A stretch of DNA of 64,000 nt from Tianweitania sediminis (GTDB lineage: Bacteria; Pseudomonadota; Alphaproteobacteria; Rhizobiales; Rhizobiaceae), in assembly GCF_017813335.1 (NCBI RefSeq), contig NZ_JAGIYY010000001.1, forward strand, positions 1,290,001 to 1,354,000. Reading direction: 5' to 3'. Shown piece after piece: positions 17,213 through 27,627 of the stretch (positions are counted from its first letter, which is position 1; each line of letters opens with the position of its first letter). The position numbers and the translations under genes are program-made. Under the pieces are notes generated by a model. That model was given only the letters and a program-made list of their open reading frames with translations, was not told the origin of the DNA and did not search any database.

Positions 17213-17982
17213 GCCTCGGCCTTTTCGATGAAGTCGAAGAGCGTCCGGCGCAGTCGCAGGAACTCGGGCATTTCGCGTGTTTCGAGCTGGTCGCGCGGGC
17301 GCGGCAGGTCGACCTTCAGGTCAATGCCGATGCGGCCCGGGTTGGGCAGGAGGCCGATCACGCGATCTCCGAGATACACCGCTTCTTCAAGGTCATGTGT
17401 GACGAAGAAAACGGTCGCCCCGGTTTCGGCCACGATGGACAGCATCTCGTCCTGCAGCCCCTGGCGCGTCATGGCGTCCAGTGCGCCAAAGGGCTCGTCC
17501 ATCAGGAGCACGGCCGGATCCTGTGCCAGGCAGCGCGCGATCTGGATGCGCTGCTGCATGCCGCCCGACATTTCCGTCGGGTACTTGTCCTCATGGCTGG
17601 CAAGCCCGACCTTCGCAAGAAGTGTCCGGATGCGCTCGGGCCGCTCGCTGCGCGGCGTGCCGGCAGCTTCAAGGGCAAGTGACACGTTGGCGGCAGCCGT
17701 GCGCCACGGCAGCAAGGCCTTGCCGTAGTCCTGAAAGACGATGGCCACGTCGCGGCGCGGCTCGGTGAGCGGCTCGCCCAGCACCCGAACAGTGCCGTCC
17801 AGGGGGCGAACCAAACCGCCGGCCATCCGCAAAGCGGTGGTCTTGCCGCAGCCGGATGGACCGATAATGCAGACAATTTCGCCCCGACCGACGTCCAGCG
17901 AAAGATCCGAGATGATCGGGCGACCGCCATAAGCAAGGCTGACGCGGTCGAACACGATCGCAGCATCGTTGCTGGTGTTCAT
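17209..17982 (-). CDS. ABC transporter ATP-binding protein (nitrate/sulfonate/taurine type)
   Basis: A 257-residue ATPase with Walker A GPSGCGKTTALRM (about residues 38-50), Q-loop in IVFQDYGKALLPW, signature MSGGMQQRIQIARCLA (about 138-153) and Walker B VLLMDEPFGALDAMT. It is typical of SsuB/TauB. The ATG at 17982 overlaps the GntR gene stop (ATGA). It energises the two permeases encoded downstream. Confidence 0.92.
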   Translation of the reverse strand: MNTSNDAAIVFDRVSLAYGGRPIISDLSLDVGRGEIVCIIGPSGCGKTTALRMAGGLVRPLDGTVRVLGEPLTEPRRDVAIVFQDYGKALLPWRTAAANVSLALEAAGTPRSERPERIRTLLAKVGLASHEDKYPTEMSGGMQQRIQIARCLAQDPAVLLMDEPFGALDAMTRQGLQDEMLSIVAETGATVFFVTHDLEEAVYLGDRVIGLLPNPGRIGIDLKVDLPRPRDQLETREMPEFLRLRRTLFDFIEKAEA

Positions 17983-20721: not shown

Positions 20722-21498
20722 ATGGCCCGCCGCATCATCGACCTGTCGATCCCGATCGCCAACGACATTCCCGCCGATCCGCCGATCCAGGTTCCGCATA
20801 TCGAGTACGTCGATCACCAGCAGAGCTTGCCGCAGCTGCTGCCGTTCTTTCCAGGCTTGAAGGCAGAGGACCTGCCAGACGGCGCGGGATGGGCCGTGGA
20901 AAAGGTGACCCTTTCCACCCACAACGGCACCCATCTGGATGCTCCCTGGCACTACCACCCCACCATGAACCACGGCGAGCCTGCCTGGCGCATCGACGAT
21001 GTGCCGCTCGACTGGTGCTTTCAGCCTGGCGTTAAGCTTGACTTCCGTCATTTCCCGGATGGCTATGTTGCCACCGCTGAAGACGTGGAAACCGAACTCA
21101 AGCGGATCGGCCATAAACTGAAGCCGCTGGAGATCGTTGTGGTGAACACCTCCGCCGGCGCCAAGTTCGGCCAGCCGGACTATGTCGCAAGCGGGTGCGG
21201 CATGGGATATGAGGCCACCATGTACCTGCTCGATCGCGGCGTGCGCGTCACCGGTACGGACGGCTGGAGCTGGGATGCGCCTTTCGTGCATACGGCCAAG
21301 AAGTACACCGAAACGAATGATGCCTCGCTGATCTGGGAAGGTCACAAGGCTGGACGTCACATCGGATATAGCCACATCGAGAAGTTGCACCGGCTGGAGG
21401 AACTGCCTGCCACCGGCTTCACCATCAGCTGCTTTCCGGTGAAGATCGAAAAAGCCTCGGCGGGCTGGTGTCGCGCCGTCGCGATTCTCGAAGACTGA
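20722..21498 (+). CDS. Cyclase-family (kynurenine formamidase-like) hydrolase
   Basis: A 258-residue protein with the cyclase/KynB metal motif HNGTHLDAPWH (about residues 72-82), the HxGTHxDxPxH signature that binds a divalent metal. Members hydrolyse N-formylkynurenine, isatin or cyclic compounds. This one is not close enough to KynB to name. The ATG at 20722 follows GAGGAG. It forms an operon with the FAH-family gene and is divergent from a taurine-type ABC operon with a GntR regulator, which suggests uptake followed by two hydrolytic steps on one compound. Confidence 0.85.
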   Translation: MARRIIDLSIPIANDIPADPPIQVPHIEYVDHQQSLPQLLPFFPGLKAEDLPDGAGWAVEKVTLSTHNGTHLDAPWHYHPTMNHGEPAWRIDDVPLDWCFQPGVKLDFRHFPDGYVATAEDVETELKRIGHKLKPLEIVVVNTSAGAKFGQPDYVASGCGMGYEATMYLLDRGVRVTGTDGWSWDAPFVHTAKKYTETNDASLIWEGHKAGRHIGYSHIEKLHRLEELPATGFTISCFPVKIEKASAGWCRAVAILED

Positions 21499-21550: not shown

Positions 21551-21586
21551 GGACCAAGGTCTGAGCCTGCACAGGACCTAGGTCCT
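21551..21586. repeat. Tandem palindromic sites GGACCNAGGTC
   Basis: Two near-identical palindromes, GGACCAAGGTC (21551-21561) and GGACCTAGGTC (21574-21584, inside the perfect 14-bp palindrome AGGACCTAGGTCCT, 21573-21586), are 23 bp apart, about two helical turns. They lie upstream of a TATAAT box (21611-21616). This is the pattern of a dimeric regulator binding one face of the DNA. Confidence 0.7.
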
Positions 21587-21610
21587 CATAACATCGGAGC
21601 TCTTTGCCTC

Positions 21611-21616
21611 TATAAT
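21611..21616 (+). promoter_or_regulatory. -10 box TATAAT upstream of the candidate small RNA
   Basis: A perfect TATAAT. The -35 position (about 21588-21593, CATAAC) is poor, consistent with dependence on an activator at the tandem palindromes. Expected transcription start near 21622. Confidence 0.5.
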
Positions 21617-21621
21617 CAATG

Positions 21622-21701
21622 GAGGGTCGCCGCACCCGTCCCTTCCGGCGATCCAGCGATCAGAACCCGTTTTGGCCCGGCCAAGACGGGTTCTTTTGTT
21701 T
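21622..21701 (+). ncRNA. Candidate small RNA, about 80 nt, two hairpins
   Basis: Between the cyclase and PilZ genes, downstream of a TATAAT box. The predicted transcript begins GGAGGGTCGCC and forms a first hairpin (TCGCCG, 13-nt C-rich loop CACCCGTCCCTTC, CGGCGA, about 21626-21652). It then ends in a strong terminator hairpin with T tail. A C-rich exposed loop plus a terminator is a common layout of alphaproteobacterial small RNAs that target ribosome-binding sites. No open reading frame of note lies in it. It could instead be only the 3' untranslated end of the cyclase operon. Confidence 0.45.
21662..21700 (+). terminator. Rho-independent terminator
   Basis: AGAACCCGTTTTGG (21662-21675) pairs with CCAAGACGGGTTCT (21681-21694) over 14 bp with one G-U pair, followed by TTTGTT. 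It ends either the cyclase operon or the candidate small RNA, just before the PilZ gene. Confidence 0.9.
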
Positions 21702-21722
21702 CGAGACTGAGCACCTCTGTTT

Positions 21723-22016
21723 ATGCCCGATCCGACCAACGACGACACACGAAAGCTGCATCGCCAGCGCGTTCTCAAGGGTGCTACCATCCTGAACGGC
21801 GTATCCAAGTCGGAGATCACTTGCACCATTCGGAACATGCATGAACAAGGAGCGGAGCTTCGCGTCCCGCTTGAAGCAACCGTCCCGAAAAGCTTCCTGC
21901 TTTATGTCCCCGTCGACGGGATCGGATATCTTTGCGAACTGCGCTGGCGCCACGGCACTCGCGTGGGCGTTCACTTCACCGGAACTGCTCCGAAACCGCA
22001 TTGGCATTATGGCTGA
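21723..22016 (+). CDS. PilZ-domain protein
   Basis: A 97-residue single-domain protein. The RxxxR element (RQRVLKGA, about residues 14-21) and the later strands (ECTIRN-like TCTIRNMHEQGAELRV and VGVHFTG) fit a PilZ domain, the cyclic-di-GMP receptor fold, although the DxSxxG motif is changed to NMHEQG, so nucleotide binding is uncertain. It starts 23 bp after a terminator, so it has its own start of transcription or is read from upstream at low level. A sensor kinase/regulator pair follows in the same direction, and two GGDEF-EAL proteins occur elsewhere in the window. Confidence 0.8.
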   Translation: MPDPTNDDTRKLHRQRVLKGATILNGVSKSEITCTIRNMHEQGAELRVPLEATVPKSFLLYVPVDGIGYLCELRWRHGTRVGVHFTGTAPKPHWHYG

Positions 22017-22101: not shown

Positions 22102-23541
22102 ATGATACTGCCTAAACAAGCCCTAGCTGCGAGCACCTTCCTGAAACGGCCTTTTGCAAGCTTCTACCCACGGTCGCTGAGCGCACAATTCTTGCTCGCC
22201 GGCGGACTCGTTTCGCTCGCAGCCATGCTTTGTGTCGGCACCGTGGTGACCAAGGTCATCGAGGACAATGTCAGCCGTCACGCCGGAGCGGCTACTGCGC
22301 TTTACGTGGACAGCGTCATCGCGCCCCTGCTGCCGGATATGCAGCGCAACGAGATGCTGGACGTCGGGATCACCCGGGCGCTCGACGAAACGCTGGAACA
22401 AGGTGCGCTGGGTGACCGTCTGCTTTCCTTTCGGCTTTGGCGCGGTGACGGAACGATCCTTTACGCAAACGACAGCACCCTCGTAGGCCGCCAATTTCCT
22501 GTCAGCGCGAGCCTGAAACAGGCGTTTGCCGGCGAGTTGGTAACCGAACTGGAGCGCGTGGATGATGTGGAGAGTGCAGCCGAGCGCGACACCAATCTGC
22601 CGCTCCTCGAGATCTACAACCCGATCCTGCAGCCCTGGTCGGGTGAAGTGGTTGCCGTGCTCGAGTTCTATGAGGTGGCGACCGAACTTCAGCGCGATCT
22701 TCGCGCAGCGCTTGTTCGCTCCTGGCTGGTCGTGGCCGGCGTTGTGGCAGGCTTCTTTCTCGCCTTGTCGGCCATTGTGATTCGAGGAAGCAGGCTGATC
22801 GACCAGCAACGCACTGCTCTGCAGGACCACGTTGGGGAACTTTCGGAAGCGCTCCGCCACAACCGCGAGCTGCGCGATCGCGTGCAGAAGGCTTCGCAAC
22901 GCGCGGTTGCCTACAACGAACGCTATCTGCGCCGCATCGGTGCGGATTTGCATGATGGTCCGGCACAGCTTCTGGCCTTCGCATCCTTGCGGCTGGACAG
23001 CGACATGCTGGTTGGCGAAAGCGCGCCCGATGCGCGTGATCGTGAGGTGACACGCATTCGCGCAAGCCTTGATGAGGCGATGACGGAATTGCGCACCATC
23101 TGCCGTGGCCTTGTCTTGCCGCATGTGGAAAGCGCGGATGTGCCGGAAATCTTGCGCAGCGTGGTGGAGGCTTACGAGCATCGCAGCGGCAAGGCCGTAA
23201 AACTTACGGTTTCGCAACCAGTCCCCGAACTATCCCCGTCCGAGAAGATTTGCGTCTACCGCTTCGTTCAGGAAGCGCTTAACAACGGGTTCAGGCATGC
23301 AGATGGCCGCGAACAGCGGGTTACCCAGACCTGGAGCGGAGACGTGTTCAGCGTGGCAGTCGCCGATGCAGGGGCGGGGTTCGACACAGAACGCGTGCCA
23401 CCAAATGGAATAGGGTTGTTGGGACTTCGGGAGCGGGTGGAAAGTTTGGGCGGCCAGTTCGAGATCGATACGTCTCCCCAGGGGACGACCGTTCGGATGA
23501 GTTTCGAGCGTGCCCTCCTTGCAGAAGGAGCTGTGCAGTGA
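22102..23541 (+). CDS. Membrane sensor histidine kinase (NarL-partner type)
   Basis: About 479 residues: a membrane helix near residues 29-50, a periplasmic or extracytoplasmic sensor of about 155 residues, a second helix near 205-228, a coiled-coil linker (about 235-275), HisKA_3 dimerisation domain with the phospho-acceptor in DLHDGPAQLL (His about 284), and an HATPase domain with EALNNGFRHA and GIGLLGLRERV. I chose the ATG at 22102. A GTG at 22075 is possible and neither has a good ribosome site. The stop overlaps the response regulator start (GTGA). Signal unknown. Confidence 0.88.
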   Translation: MILPKQALAASTFLKRPFASFYPRSLSAQFLLAGGLVSLAAMLCVGTVVTKVIEDNVSRHAGAATALYVDSVIAPLLPDMQRNEMLDVGITRALDETLEQGALGDRLLSFRLWRGDGTILYANDSTLVGRQFPVSASLKQAFAGELVTELERVDDVESAAERDTNLPLLEIYNPILQPWSGEVVAVLEFYEVATELQRDLRAALVRSWLVVAGVVAGFFLALSAIVIRGSRLIDQQRTALQDHVGELSEALRHNRELRDRVQKASQRAVAYNERYLRRIGADLHDGPAQLLAFASLRLDSDMLVGESAPDARDREVTRIRASLDEAMTELRTICRGLVLPHVESADVPEILRSVVEAYEHRSGKAVKLTVSQPVPELSPSEKICVYRFVQEALNNGFRHADGREQRVTQTWSGDVFSVAVADAGAGFDTERVPPNGIGLLGLRERVESLGGQFEIDTSPQGTTVRMSFERALLAEGAVQ

Positions 23542-24197
23542 TCCGCGTGGCCATCATCGATGACCACCCGCTCTTTCGCGAAGGGGTCAGTCGTAGCCTC
23601 GCCGAGCTGGAGGGCTTCGAAGTTGTTGCGGAAGGCGCTTCGGCCGAGGATGCTCTTCGCATTGCGGCTGAGCATTCGCCCGACATCGTGCTCCTTGACC
23701 TTTCCATGCCCGGTAGCGGGTTGAAGGCCATCACGCCCATCCTGATGAACGATCCTGATCAGAAGATCGTCGTGCTCACGGTTTCCGAAGCCAGCGAGGA
23801 CGTTGCTGAAGCCCTGAAATCGGGCGCGAAAGGCTTTGCCCTGAAGGGCGTAGGCTCACGAGCCTTGGCCGAGATCCTGCGTACTGTCGCTGGCGGGGAA
23901 ACCTATGTGGCACCCAAGCTTTCAGCCGCATTGTTGTCGCGCCTGACGACACCTGCGTCACCTCCAGAGCCCGATCTGCTTGCCTCGCTCACTGCTCGCG
24001 AGCGCCAGATCCTCGATCTGGTGGCACGTGGTCTCAGCAACAAGCACGTGGCAATCGAACTCGACCTTCACGAGAAAACCGTCAAGCATCACATGACCCG
24101 GATCCTGGCAAAGCTCGGGGTTGGCAATCGCACTGAAGCGGCCCTGGCGTTTCGCGATGCGCTTGATCGCCAGAACAGCGGATCACCACGCACGTAG
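23538..24197 (+). CDS. NarL/FixJ-family response regulator
   Basis: A 219-residue regulator. Receiver domain at 1-120 with acidic pocket Asp8-Asp9, phosphorylation site Asp54 (DIVLLDLSMPG) and the conserved Thr/Lys positions (VLTVS, KGVGS). A LuxR-type helix-turn-helix follows at about residues 145-210 (LTARERQILDLVARGLSNKH, then KTVKHHMTRILAKLGV). It starts with GTG at 23538, with GGAG upstream, overlapping the kinase gene by 4 bp. Its DNA targets are unknown. The tandem palindromes at 21551-21586 are a candidate. Confidence 0.92.
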   Translation: MIRVAIIDDHPLFREGVSRSLAELEGFEVVAEGASAEDALRIAAEHSPDIVLLDLSMPGSGLKAITPILMNDPDQKIVVLTVSEASEDVAEALKSGAKGFALKGVGSRALAEILRTVAGGETYVAPKLSAALLSRLTTPASPPEPDLLASLTARERQILDLVARGLSNKHVAIELDLHEKTVKHHMTRILAKLGVGNRTEAALAFRDALDRQNSGSPRT

Positions 24198-24884: not shown

Positions 24885-24910
24885 AACGCAACGCATGTTG
24901 GAGCGGTTCC
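24885..24910 (-). promoter_or_regulatory. EcfG-type general-stress promoter for the Gly-rich gene
   Basis: On the minus strand GGAAC (24910-24906), a 17-bp spacer and CGTT (24888-24885) match the alphaproteobacterial EcfG consensus GGAAC-N16/17-CGTT. Transcription would start near 24877, about 90 bp before the ATG at 24784. Confidence 0.7.
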
Positions 24911-25013
24911 TGACACGGGATGGACGACTCACCATTGCCGCAGCGCGTCAGACCAAAGTCCGAACATCAAGCAGACCAACGACTTAGCGTCGTTGCGACC
25001 GAAGCCCCGGACA

Positions 25014-25506: not shown

Positions 25507-26124
25507 ATGAAACTCATCAAGCAAAGCTCGCTCGCGTTGATGCTGCTCGCAGGCACCACGCTTTCAGCCTACGCACAGTCCAGCAGCACCGTCGGAACCG
25601 GCGGCACCTCGGCTGGTGGAGGGACCTCGTCCTCGACCGTCGGCACCGGTGGCTCGTCAGCCGGCAGCTGTGACGCTTCTTCCGGAAACTGCGGCTCCGG
25701 CTCGGCTTCGACGCTGGGCACCGGCGGTACGTCGGCTGGCGGCGGCACGTCCTCGTCGTCGGTTGGCACCGGTGGTTCGGCTGCCGGTTCCGGCGACAGT
25801 GGTTCGGGTTCGGCTTCGACGCTGGGCACCGGCGGTACGTCGGCTGGCGGCGGCACGTCCTCGTCCTCGGTTGGCACGGGTGGTTCGGCTGCCGGTTCCG
25901 GCGACAGCGGCTCGGGTTCGGCTTCCACGCTGGGCACCGGCGGTACGTCGGCTGGCGGCGGCACGTCCTCGTCGTCGGTTGGCACCGGCGGTACGTCGGC
26001 TGGCGGCGGCACGTCCTCGTCATCGGTCGGCACCGCCGGCTCTTCGGCCGCTGCCCAGGACGACGCTTCCAACAAGAAGTGCCCTCCCGGACAGGCGAAA
26101 AAGAACGGCGGCAAGTGCGACTAA
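25507..26124 (+). CDS. Exported Gly/Ser/Thr repeat protein
   Basis: A 205-residue protein with a signal peptide (MKLIKQSSLALMLLAGTTLS, cleavage after AYAQ) and a mature part almost entirely of Gly, Ser, Thr and Ala. It has a 36-residue repeat (SASTLGTGGTSAGGGTSSSS followed by VGTGGSAAGSGDSGSG), itself built from the shorter unit GTGGTSAGGGTSSSSV. The C-terminus is a short basic cysteine tail (KKCPPGQAKKNGGKCD), and one more pair of Cys occurs near residues 55-62. AAGGAG precedes the ATG and a terminator follows. No known family. The composition suggests a flexible surface or matrix protein. A shorter paralogue is at 26595-27029. Confidence 0.75.
   Translation: MKLIKQSSLALMLLAGTTLSAYAQSSSTVGTGGTSAGGGTSSSTVGTGGSSAGSCDASSGNCGSGSASTLGTGGTSAGGGTSSSSVGTGGSAAGSGDSGSGSASTLGTGGTSAGGGTSSSSVGTGGSAAGSGDSGSGSASTLGTGGTSAGGGTSSSSVGTGGTSAGGGTSSSSVGTAGSSAAAQDDASNKKCPPGQAKKNGGKCD
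25702..25992 (+). repeat. In-frame 108-bp tandem repeats
   Basis: Two complete 108-bp units (25702-25809 and 25810-25917) and a 75-bp partial third encode the 36-residue repeat. The units are nearly identical at DNA level, differing mainly at synonymous positions, which indicates recent duplication or ongoing homogenisation. Copy number may vary between strains. Confidence 0.85.
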
Positions 26125-26131
26125 AACAACC

Positions 26132-26156
26132 GGCACCGGCCTTCCTGGCCGGTGCC
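26132..26156 (+). terminator. Rho-independent terminator
   Basis: GGCACCGGCC, loop TTCCT and GGCCGGTGCC form a perfect 10-bp stem followed by ACTTTTC, 8 bp after the stop of the repeat-protein gene. Confidence 0.85.
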
Positions 26157-26174
26157 ACTTTTCGGAGAAGCCTC

Positions 26175-26585
26175 ATGCGTATTCGGCGCCACTCACGCCT
26201 TCTCGGCGCGATGCTTGTTTTCACGGCCTTTGCAGCGGAGCCTGCCGTCGCAGAAACGGTGAAATCCGGCACCTGCGTCGAACAGGAACAGTCGCAGCCA
26301 CAGGGCTCCGGAAGCCGCCTGTCCGCCCGATCATCAGCCGGATCGGTGTCAACCCATGTTGAAGCGGGGAATGGCAGAGTTTCCGCGGGAACAAGCCTCG
26401 GTGCGACGCAGGATCATGAGCAACAGGTGGGCGGTGCGGGTACGCAAAACCAGCAGTCGCGTCGGAGCGTCACCGTGACGTCTTCGAGCGGAAGCAGCGC
26501 CAGCAGCGCCGTGAGCTCCTCCAGCGGAAACGCAGGAACGGCAGCGGTTTCGGGAAGCGGCGACTGCGTGATCATTTCGGACTAG
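26175..26585 (+). CDS. Exported Ser-rich hypothetical protein
   Basis: A 136-residue protein with a signal peptide (MRIRRHSRLLGAMLVFTAFA, cleavage after AVA near residue 26). The mature part is Ser/Gly/Gln-rich (QPQGSGSRLSARSSAGSVS, TSSSGSSASSAVSSSSG) with a Cys near each end (GTCVEQEQ and SGDCVIIS), which could close a disulfide loop. GGAGAAG precedes the ATG at 26175. No family recognised. It belongs to the same run of low-complexity exported proteins and ends 9 bp before the next gene, so those two are co-transcribed. Confidence 0.65.
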   Translation: MRIRRHSRLLGAMLVFTAFAAEPAVAETVKSGTCVEQEQSQPQGSGSRLSARSSAGSVSTHVEAGNGRVSAGTSLGATQDHEQQVGGAGTQNQQSRRSVTVTSSSGSSASSAVSSSSGNAGTAAVSGSGDCVIISD

Positions 26586-26594
26586 GAGCACAAC

Positions 26595-27029
26595 ATGTAC
26601 ACGAAATTGTTCGGTATCCTGCTTTTGGGGGCAACCCTCACGAGCACCGCCTTGGCCGAGGACCTGCCGAGTTCGGCGACGGTTGGCAGCGGCGGTTCGG
26701 CTGCGGCTGGAGGGACATCCGCTTCGACCGTTGGCACTGGTGGCATTTCGGAAGGTGTGGATGGGAGCCAAAGCTCATCCATCGCTTCTGGCGGCAGTGC
26801 GGCAACGGCGGATGGCAAAGCGCGAAGCGACACGAAAACCGTCGAGAACCCCAATCAGTTGAAGTCGCAGTCCAAGGCCATGGCGCAGGACAAGGGGACT
26901 TTCTCACGGTCGCAAACAAAAACACGCGTTCGCGACGATGCACTGACCAGCACAACCCGATCCATGTCGCATGTGCCGGGTGAAAAGCCCGTGAAAAGCA
27001 CCACCACGACCGAGGTGCAGCCTCAATAA
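26595..27029 (+). CDS. Exported Gly/Ser repeat protein, paralogue
   Basis: A 144-residue protein with a signal peptide (MYTKLFGILLLGATLTSTAL, cleavage after ALA). Residues 27-50 (SATVGSGGSAAAGGTSASTV) follow the same pattern as the repeat protein at 25507-26124, so the two are paralogues. The C-terminal half is polar and charged (QLKSQSKAMAQDKGTFSRSQ, then TTTTEV) without Cys. The ribosome site is GGAG 8 bp before the ATG. It is probably co-transcribed with the Ser-rich gene. No known function. Confidence 0.7.
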   Translation: MYTKLFGILLLGATLTSTALAEDLPSSATVGSGGSAAAGGTSASTVGTGGISEGVDGSQSSSIASGGSAATADGKARSDTKTVENPNQLKSQSKAMAQDKGTFSRSQTKTRVRDDALTSTTRSMSHVPGEKPVKSTTTTEVQPQ

Positions 27030-27090
27030 GGCTGAGCCTTCTGCCAATCGGTAGCCCTTCAACGCTGGCGGGCGATCATCCGTCCAGCCC

Positions 27091-27153: not shown

Positions 27154-27627
27154 TTGAAAGCAGTTCTGCTGATCCTGAGCGGATTTCTCGTCACCAGCGG
27201 TGCTTTTGCAGGCGGGGTTGTCTACGCGGTTTCCCTTCTCACGGTGAAAACGGGACCCGTCACGACGCTGAACATGGACTGGGAGAGTGCCTGGACCACG
27301 GAACCGGTGCGCATTGTTGCCGCCGAGACTTCTGGGAGGGAGGAACCGGAGCCCCCCACGTCCAAGAGCAGGATCAAAGTCGAGGCCCGCTTGGTAGAAG
27401 CGATTGATGAACAAGTGGCGCTCGACAACTTGGTCACGGCCTCATTCGAAGACAGCGCTCCGTCGGACGCTCCGGCAGTTCTGCCAGTCACCCAAGCGCA
27501 TCTGGACTGGTGTGCCGATCGCTACCGCTCCTATGACGCGGCAACCGACAGTTACACAAGCTACAGTGGGAAAACGCGGCCTTGCCGCTCGCCTTATGGG
27601 ACCGAGAATGGAACGGCTCCGCGATAA
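27154..27627 (+). CDS. Exported BA14K-like protein
   Basis: A 157-residue protein with a signal peptide or anchor (residues 1-28) and a C-terminal BA14K-type motif (HLDWCADRYRSYDAATDSY, about residues 119-137), followed by SGKTRPCRSPY. The conserved pattern is W-C-x3-Y-R-S-Y-D with a second Cys. BA14K was first described as a Brucella immunoreactive protein with lectin-like behaviour. The start is TTG at 27154, with GAGGCGGG 8 bp upstream. The middle section is acidic and unstructured. Confidence 0.72.
   Translation: MKAVLLILSGFLVTSGAFAGGVVYAVSLLTVKTGPVTTLNMDWESAWTTEPVRIVAAETSGREEPEPPTSKSRIKVEARLVEAIDEQVALDNLVTASFEDSAPSDAPAVLPVTQAHLDWCADRYRSYDAATDSYTSYSGKTRPCRSPYGTENGTAPR

Follow-up and report, generated by a model that had tools for sequence, protein, structure and literature searches.

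The window, a 64,000-nucleotide stretch of the Tianweitania sediminis genome, contains a candidate small RNA in the gap between a cyclase gene and a pilZ-like gene, the latter followed by genes for a sensor histidine kinase and a response regulator (Table 1). Between the cyclase stop codon and the pilZ start lie, in this order, two palindromes, a promoter, a hairpin (hairpin 1) and a terminator. The RNA and the cyclase gene share a strand, and because the cyclase stop codon, at 21498, is upstream of both operators, the promoter, hairpin and terminator are able to form a separate unit. The operator and promoter architecture, the hairpins, the terminator and the gene order were all established by computation.

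Table 1. Features of the small RNA locus in window coordinates
Feature	Position	Strand	Basis or remark
Distal operator palindrome GGACCAAGGTCT	21551..21562	.	Sequence; one of the genome's 14 exact RGACYWWRGTCY sites
Proximal operator, perfect 14-bp palindrome AGGACCTAGGTCCT	21573..21586 (12-bp core 21574-21585)	.	
Predicted promoter: ATAACA (poor -35), 17-nt spacer, TATAAT (perfect -10)	21588..21616	+	
Candidate small RNA, ~75-80 nt	21622..21701	+	Fold and promoter/terminator scan; 5' end predicted
Hairpin 1, C-rich loop CACCCGTCCCTTC at 21633-21645	21624..21654	+	
Intrinsic terminator, 15-bp stem and T-rich tail TTTTGTTT	21662..21702 (stem 21662-21694)	+	
pilZ-like gene	21723..22016	+	PilZ 21.4 bits, just below the Pfam cut-off of 22.5
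Sensor histidine kinase (HisKA_3, HATPase_c)	22102..23541	+	Domain matches; start codon picked by eye
LuxR/NarL-type response regulator, proposed activator of the promoter	23538..24197	+	Putative binding, from the operator footprint
Further operator copy AGACCAAAGTCC	24950..24961	.	Between a minus-strand Gly-rich gene and the DUF1236 gene (25105)

The TATAAT box reported in the initial annotation is present at 21611-21616. Two such hexamers occur in the window, against a mean of 1.53 in shuffled sequence, so the hexamer by itself means little. Taken together, the two promoter elements match at 10 of 12 positions, and the segment 21000-22500 has this one promoter-like site where shuffles give a mean of 0.3. 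The proximal and distal operators are centered near -43 and -66, respectively, relative to the likely start. This combination of a poor -35, a good -10 and an operator around -43 is consistent with a class II activated promoter. The proximal operator is one of two perfect 14-bp palindromes in the window, and as AGGACCNAGGTCCT it is the sole exact match in the genome.

The operator motif recurs before homologs of the downstream kinase. The 300 bp preceding the kinase match were scanned at 31 loci, consisting of 7 named loci and 24 from a search of 81 genomes, in which 20 genomes, our own included, have a kinase match at E <= 1e-40; two of the 24 are in the T. sediminis genome, and the 31 thus include two own-genome loci as well as near-duplicates. 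The first consensus 12-mer, RGACCWARGTCY, occurs with at least 11 of 12 matching positions at 15 of the 31 loci, compared with a mean of 0.3 in 60 dinucleotide shuffles, and tandem sites (at least 9 of 12, 21-25 bp apart) are found at 14 of the 31, compared with 0.6. The symmetrical consensus RGACYWWRGTCY was adjusted after these first counts. It was then scored on 21 held-out loci, obtained once the motif had already been written down and from which the two own-genome loci, L126 and L147, and L130, which shares its genome with L123, had been removed; 9 of the 21 carry it at 11 of 12 or better, where 200 shuffles average 0.37 and never exceed 2. The first consensus passes in 8 of these loci, and the motif is therefore missing at this cut-off in 12 to 13 of the 21.

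The position of the -10 element is also shared. The window and 6 of 17 distinct other loci have a TAnnnT exactly 25 nt past the proximal site. Counting the window, 19 rows have a site, and among these every other -10 offset occurs in at most one row; the near-identical L120, L121 and L124 count as three loci both among the 31 and among the 17. The shared motif and the 25-nt spacing indicate that the promoter resembles one that precedes many members of the kinase family, and, judged by sequence, it is like the one through which this LuxR-type two-component system would regulate its own genes. It had been argued that a small RNA was all that could explain the promoter, an argument that overlooked the tandem palindromes and gives way to an operator motif common to kinase homologs. 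The operator is not overrepresented genome-wide, with 14 exact sites, two of them at this locus, against 28 for a reversed control pattern, and its support consequently rests on its position before kinase homologs. A second kinase in the T. sediminis genome (L147), 43% identical, has a regulator beside it, so that either regulator could bind the operators.

The 80-nt candidate RNA folds at -43.4 kcal/mol (z -5.54), and none of 200 shuffles folds equally well. Hairpin 1, described earlier as a hairpin exposing a C-rich loop, does so with 9 pairs, including one G-U, closing a 13-nt loop. Folded by itself it reaches -15.5 kcal/mol (z -3.06; 1 of 200 shuffles equally good). Of 4000 segments of 40 nt drawn at random from the window, 93 contain a stem of 9 bp or longer, which makes hairpin 1 by itself only moderately unusual. 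The terminator is a strong stem with a T-rich tail, as had been stated, although it has 15 pairs rather than 14, and the coordinates given earlier stand; a lax pattern scan returned two terminator-like sites, against 1.4 expected, and both are this terminator. The predicted promoter and strong terminator make a discrete RNA of about 75-80 nt likely, and the features by which a trans-acting small RNA is recognized, namely its own promoter, a compact structure and an intrinsic terminator, are all present as sequence predictions. To that extent the small RNA originally suggested holds up, with a promoter better supported than was apparent in the initial annotation; conservation of its first hairpin and specific pairing of its loop with ribosome-binding sites are not supported by the searches described below.

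We think it probable that this promoter, which bears putative sites of the neighboring sensor-regulator pair, gives rise to a short two-hairpin RNA. The reading that we favor, with some reserve, is that the locus is a unit activated by the downstream two-component system, yielding a terminated small RNA with a C-rich loop and, by read-through, the pilZ-kinase-regulator transcript. The response regulator, or its paralog in the same genome, would bind both tandem palindromes and bring in RNA polymerase at the promoter, whose -35 is poor and whose -10 is perfect. From a start near 21622, most transcription would proceed as far as the terminator, near 21700, and stop there, giving a presumably stable two-hairpin RNA that displays the 13-nt C-rich loop. 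The loop would probably pair with G-rich sites in mRNAs, perhaps ribosome-binding sites, while polymerases that read through the terminator would continue into pilZ, the kinase and the regulator. We infer the pairing with mRNA from known C-rich small RNAs such as GsrN and SisA. Of 20 initiation regions tested in the window, none paired better with the loop than with shuffled versions of it; the best site was the start of the FAA hydrolase gene, which 31% of shuffled loops match or beat. The 20 starts were picked by eye from lists of open reading frames, and one (26596, codon TGT) is wrong.

If this reading is true, it provides a small RNA output for a two-component system whose kinase has homologs (E <= 1e-40) in 19 of the 80 relatives searched. 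The system would also gain a DNA-binding motif that is open to testing and has 14 exact copies in the genome, and the locus would exemplify the birth of a young regulatory RNA inside an autoregulatory circuit.

In the main rival explanation, the same promoter would instead serve an operon leader. The pilZ-kinase-regulator operon would then be autoregulated from it, with hairpin 1 and the terminator keeping expression low in cis by attenuation or partial termination and the released RNA having no function of its own; we regard this as possible but doubtful. In its favor, in the relatives the motif (at least 11 of 12) begins 57-186 bp before the kinase match, with 249 bp in one locus, and the 300 bp before the T. 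sediminis kinase itself (L126) contain no operator match of 10 of 12 or better. The pilZ start is 28 bp past the terminator stem, and pilZ should need read-through. The loop sequence ACCCGTC is exactly complementary, over 7 bp, to GACGGGT in the 3' arm of the terminator, which would suit an antiterminator. However, the one alternative fold tested, in which the loop pairs with the 3' arm, has -22.6 kcal/mol against -43.4 for the native fold, and a penalty of about 21 kcal/mol makes a simple loop/terminator switch unlikely. The absence of any Rfam family at threshold here, and the cost of a 15-bp terminator in front of genes meant for expression, also weigh against a leader. Plain partial termination is possible, and the leader and small RNA roles could coexist.

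No pilZ was found near the kinase in any of the other 30 loci of the set (L119-L149; tblastn, E <= 1e-4; flanks of about 0.8-4 kb). Elsewhere in the T. sediminis genome there is another pilZ, 78% identical to this one (G000:C16:55116-55406, L097). The end of a BA14K-like gene, recognized by eye, precedes pilZ in six of six cases, these being L097 and the plus-strand loci L069-L073, and ACCCGTCCC is absent from all six of these loci. In this lineage the small RNA and pilZ thus seem to have come to lie between the kinase operon and its autoregulated promoter.

The searches for relatives of the RNA produced no convincing one. A BLAST search with the element found nothing in two congeners (E <= 0.01), neither of which has a kinase match at E <= 1e-40. 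With no such kinase match in the congeners, and with pilZ beside the kinase only here among L119-L149, the comparison contained no equivalent locus on which to compare hairpin 1. In 393 other genomes of the family (E <= 0.001) there were two partial matches only, in G211 and G368, which we reject as homologs because they lie inside frames open for 716 and up to 215 codons, respectively. Across 61 genomes including our own, the best match outside T. sediminis has an E value of 0.0025 over 30 nt. The loop sequence CACCCGTCCC is present in 4 of 67 loci: the locus of the window, and L009, L015 and L058, which look by eye like coding sequence and were set aside; L058 had come from the CC1840 search described below. 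A pattern of operator, -10 and CCCGTCC matched only the window itself among 394 family genomes, while its reversed control had one match in each of two other genomes.

The check proposed in the initial annotation, a covariance search with the two-hairpin fold, gave no convincing homolog in 396 other genomes of the order. The model (R1) was built from a single sequence and was run with the stricter filters of Infernal, at the cost of losing weak matches. Over the 397 order genomes it reports matches in 16, our own included, at E <= 0.05, and none of the 17 matches besides the element has the CACCCGTCCC loop by eye; one other genome, at 7.9e-5, scores slightly above the second match of our own (1.0e-4).

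The lack of detectable RNA conservation in the 393 family and 396 order genomes would be expected if the gap held a terminator only, ending read-through from the FAA hydrolase-cyclase operon, with the promoter and hairpin 1 having arisen by chance. The orientation of the cyclase gene fits such an origin, as does the frequency of stems like hairpin 1 in random segments, but a chance promoter is made unlikely by the shared operator and the 25-nt distance from operator to -10, and we consider this explanation improbable.

Nor does the RNA appear to belong to one of the known alphaproteobacterial families with a C-rich loop (Caulobacter CC1840, GsrN or alpha-r8), a membership that is largely refuted and that we hold to be very improbable. 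No Rfam family reaches threshold near the element; the window's single Rfam match, a TPP riboswitch, lies on the minus strand at 1681-1793 (59.4 bits, gathering score 54.3). The layout of two hairpins is like that of CC1840 (RF01521), whose model aligns full-length with the candidate, and the first loops have an identical stretch of 11 nt, CACCCGUCCCU, in common; in the family consensus, in contrast, both the first stem and the linker are longer. With 19.8 bits, the alignment falls far short of the gathering score, 50, and its E value of 1.4 is at chance level, with three unrelated families scoring similarly. When the CC1840 model was run on the T. sediminis genome and 60 relatives, the element was not among the matches listed and none of the 61 genomes had a match over the cut-off; the sole match in our own genome lies elsewhere (C18, 18.8 bits).

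EcfG-type promoters have the motif GGAAC and GTT, separated by 16-17 nt. Allowing a spacing of 15-19 nt, the window has 10 matches, against 8 expected, and none precedes the start at 21622, the nearest being at 17259-17281 and 24885-24910. GsrN is a general stress small RNA of Caulobacter that is activated by sigma-T, and its predicted homologs are typically near ecfG-nepR-phyR (PMC5869019). GsrN has a 5' hairpin exposing a C-rich loop, like the RNA considered here, whereas the promoter of the latter lacks an EcfG-type motif and carries a putative operator of a two-component system. The alpha-r8, MmgR and SisA-D RNAs likewise combine a C/U-rich seed with a Rho-independent terminator (PMC12559287), but the 10-nt core of alpha-r8 and SisA, UUUCCUCCCU, is absent from 21622-21701 at up to 2 mismatches. 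A parallel in regulation is offered by small RNAs under two-component systems, such as ChvR under ChvGI (PMC11005374), where a response regulator drives the small RNA gene; unlike in that system, the proposed regulator here is of the LuxR/NarL type and is encoded just past the RNA on the same strand. The RNA is best called a new, lineage-specific candidate for a small RNA under a two-component system.

The best other R1 match in the T. sediminis genome, the C3 element (G000:C3:132300-132387, 33.6 bits, E 1e-4), begins 15 nt past the stop codon of a gene of the WGxxGxxG family (L166 1243-1590; NF041742, 69.5 bits, cut-off 35), for which a literature search found no paper. A copy of the operator, GGACTTAGGTCT, ends 53 nt before the start codon of this gene and about 310 nt before the element. 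Over its full length the C3 element has a similarity score of 58, while the best of 4378 background tiles has 50. Its hairpin half by itself is unexceptional, its score being reached by 10 of the 4378 tiles, and its C-rich half does not fold into the structure of hairpin 1. A DNA search of 121 genomes with the C3 element gave four weak matches besides itself (E 0.001-0.007). The position behind an operator copy was noticed post hoc and is only suggestive. The C3 element might be a sibling of the small RNA, such that one regulon would include a free small RNA and a copy of its seed carried on an mRNA, and an autoregulated LuxR-type promoter would have been turned into a small RNA gene, with its own operon made only by read-through; we judge this extension of the favored reading unlikely.

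Among the other copies of the operator, the one at 24950-24961 is followed 23 bp further on by a weaker copy, before the DUF1236 gene. Beyond it, beside the two-component system, the window has a run of repetitive Gly/Ser/Thr-rich proteins that look exported by eye (25507-27040), and after these a BA14K-like protein at 27157-27627. Elsewhere in the genome, the L180 site precedes a TadE/TadG-like frame (by eye), and the L182 site falls within a long open frame. A literature search for the letters of the motif produced, among the matches listed, none whose title concerns this regulator. A perfect GGACCAAAGTCC at L177 (G000:C12:463958-463969) lies about 70 bp before a glgC-like frame, identified by eye and corresponding to glucose-1-phosphate adenylyltransferase, which suggests a possible link between the regulator and glycogen.
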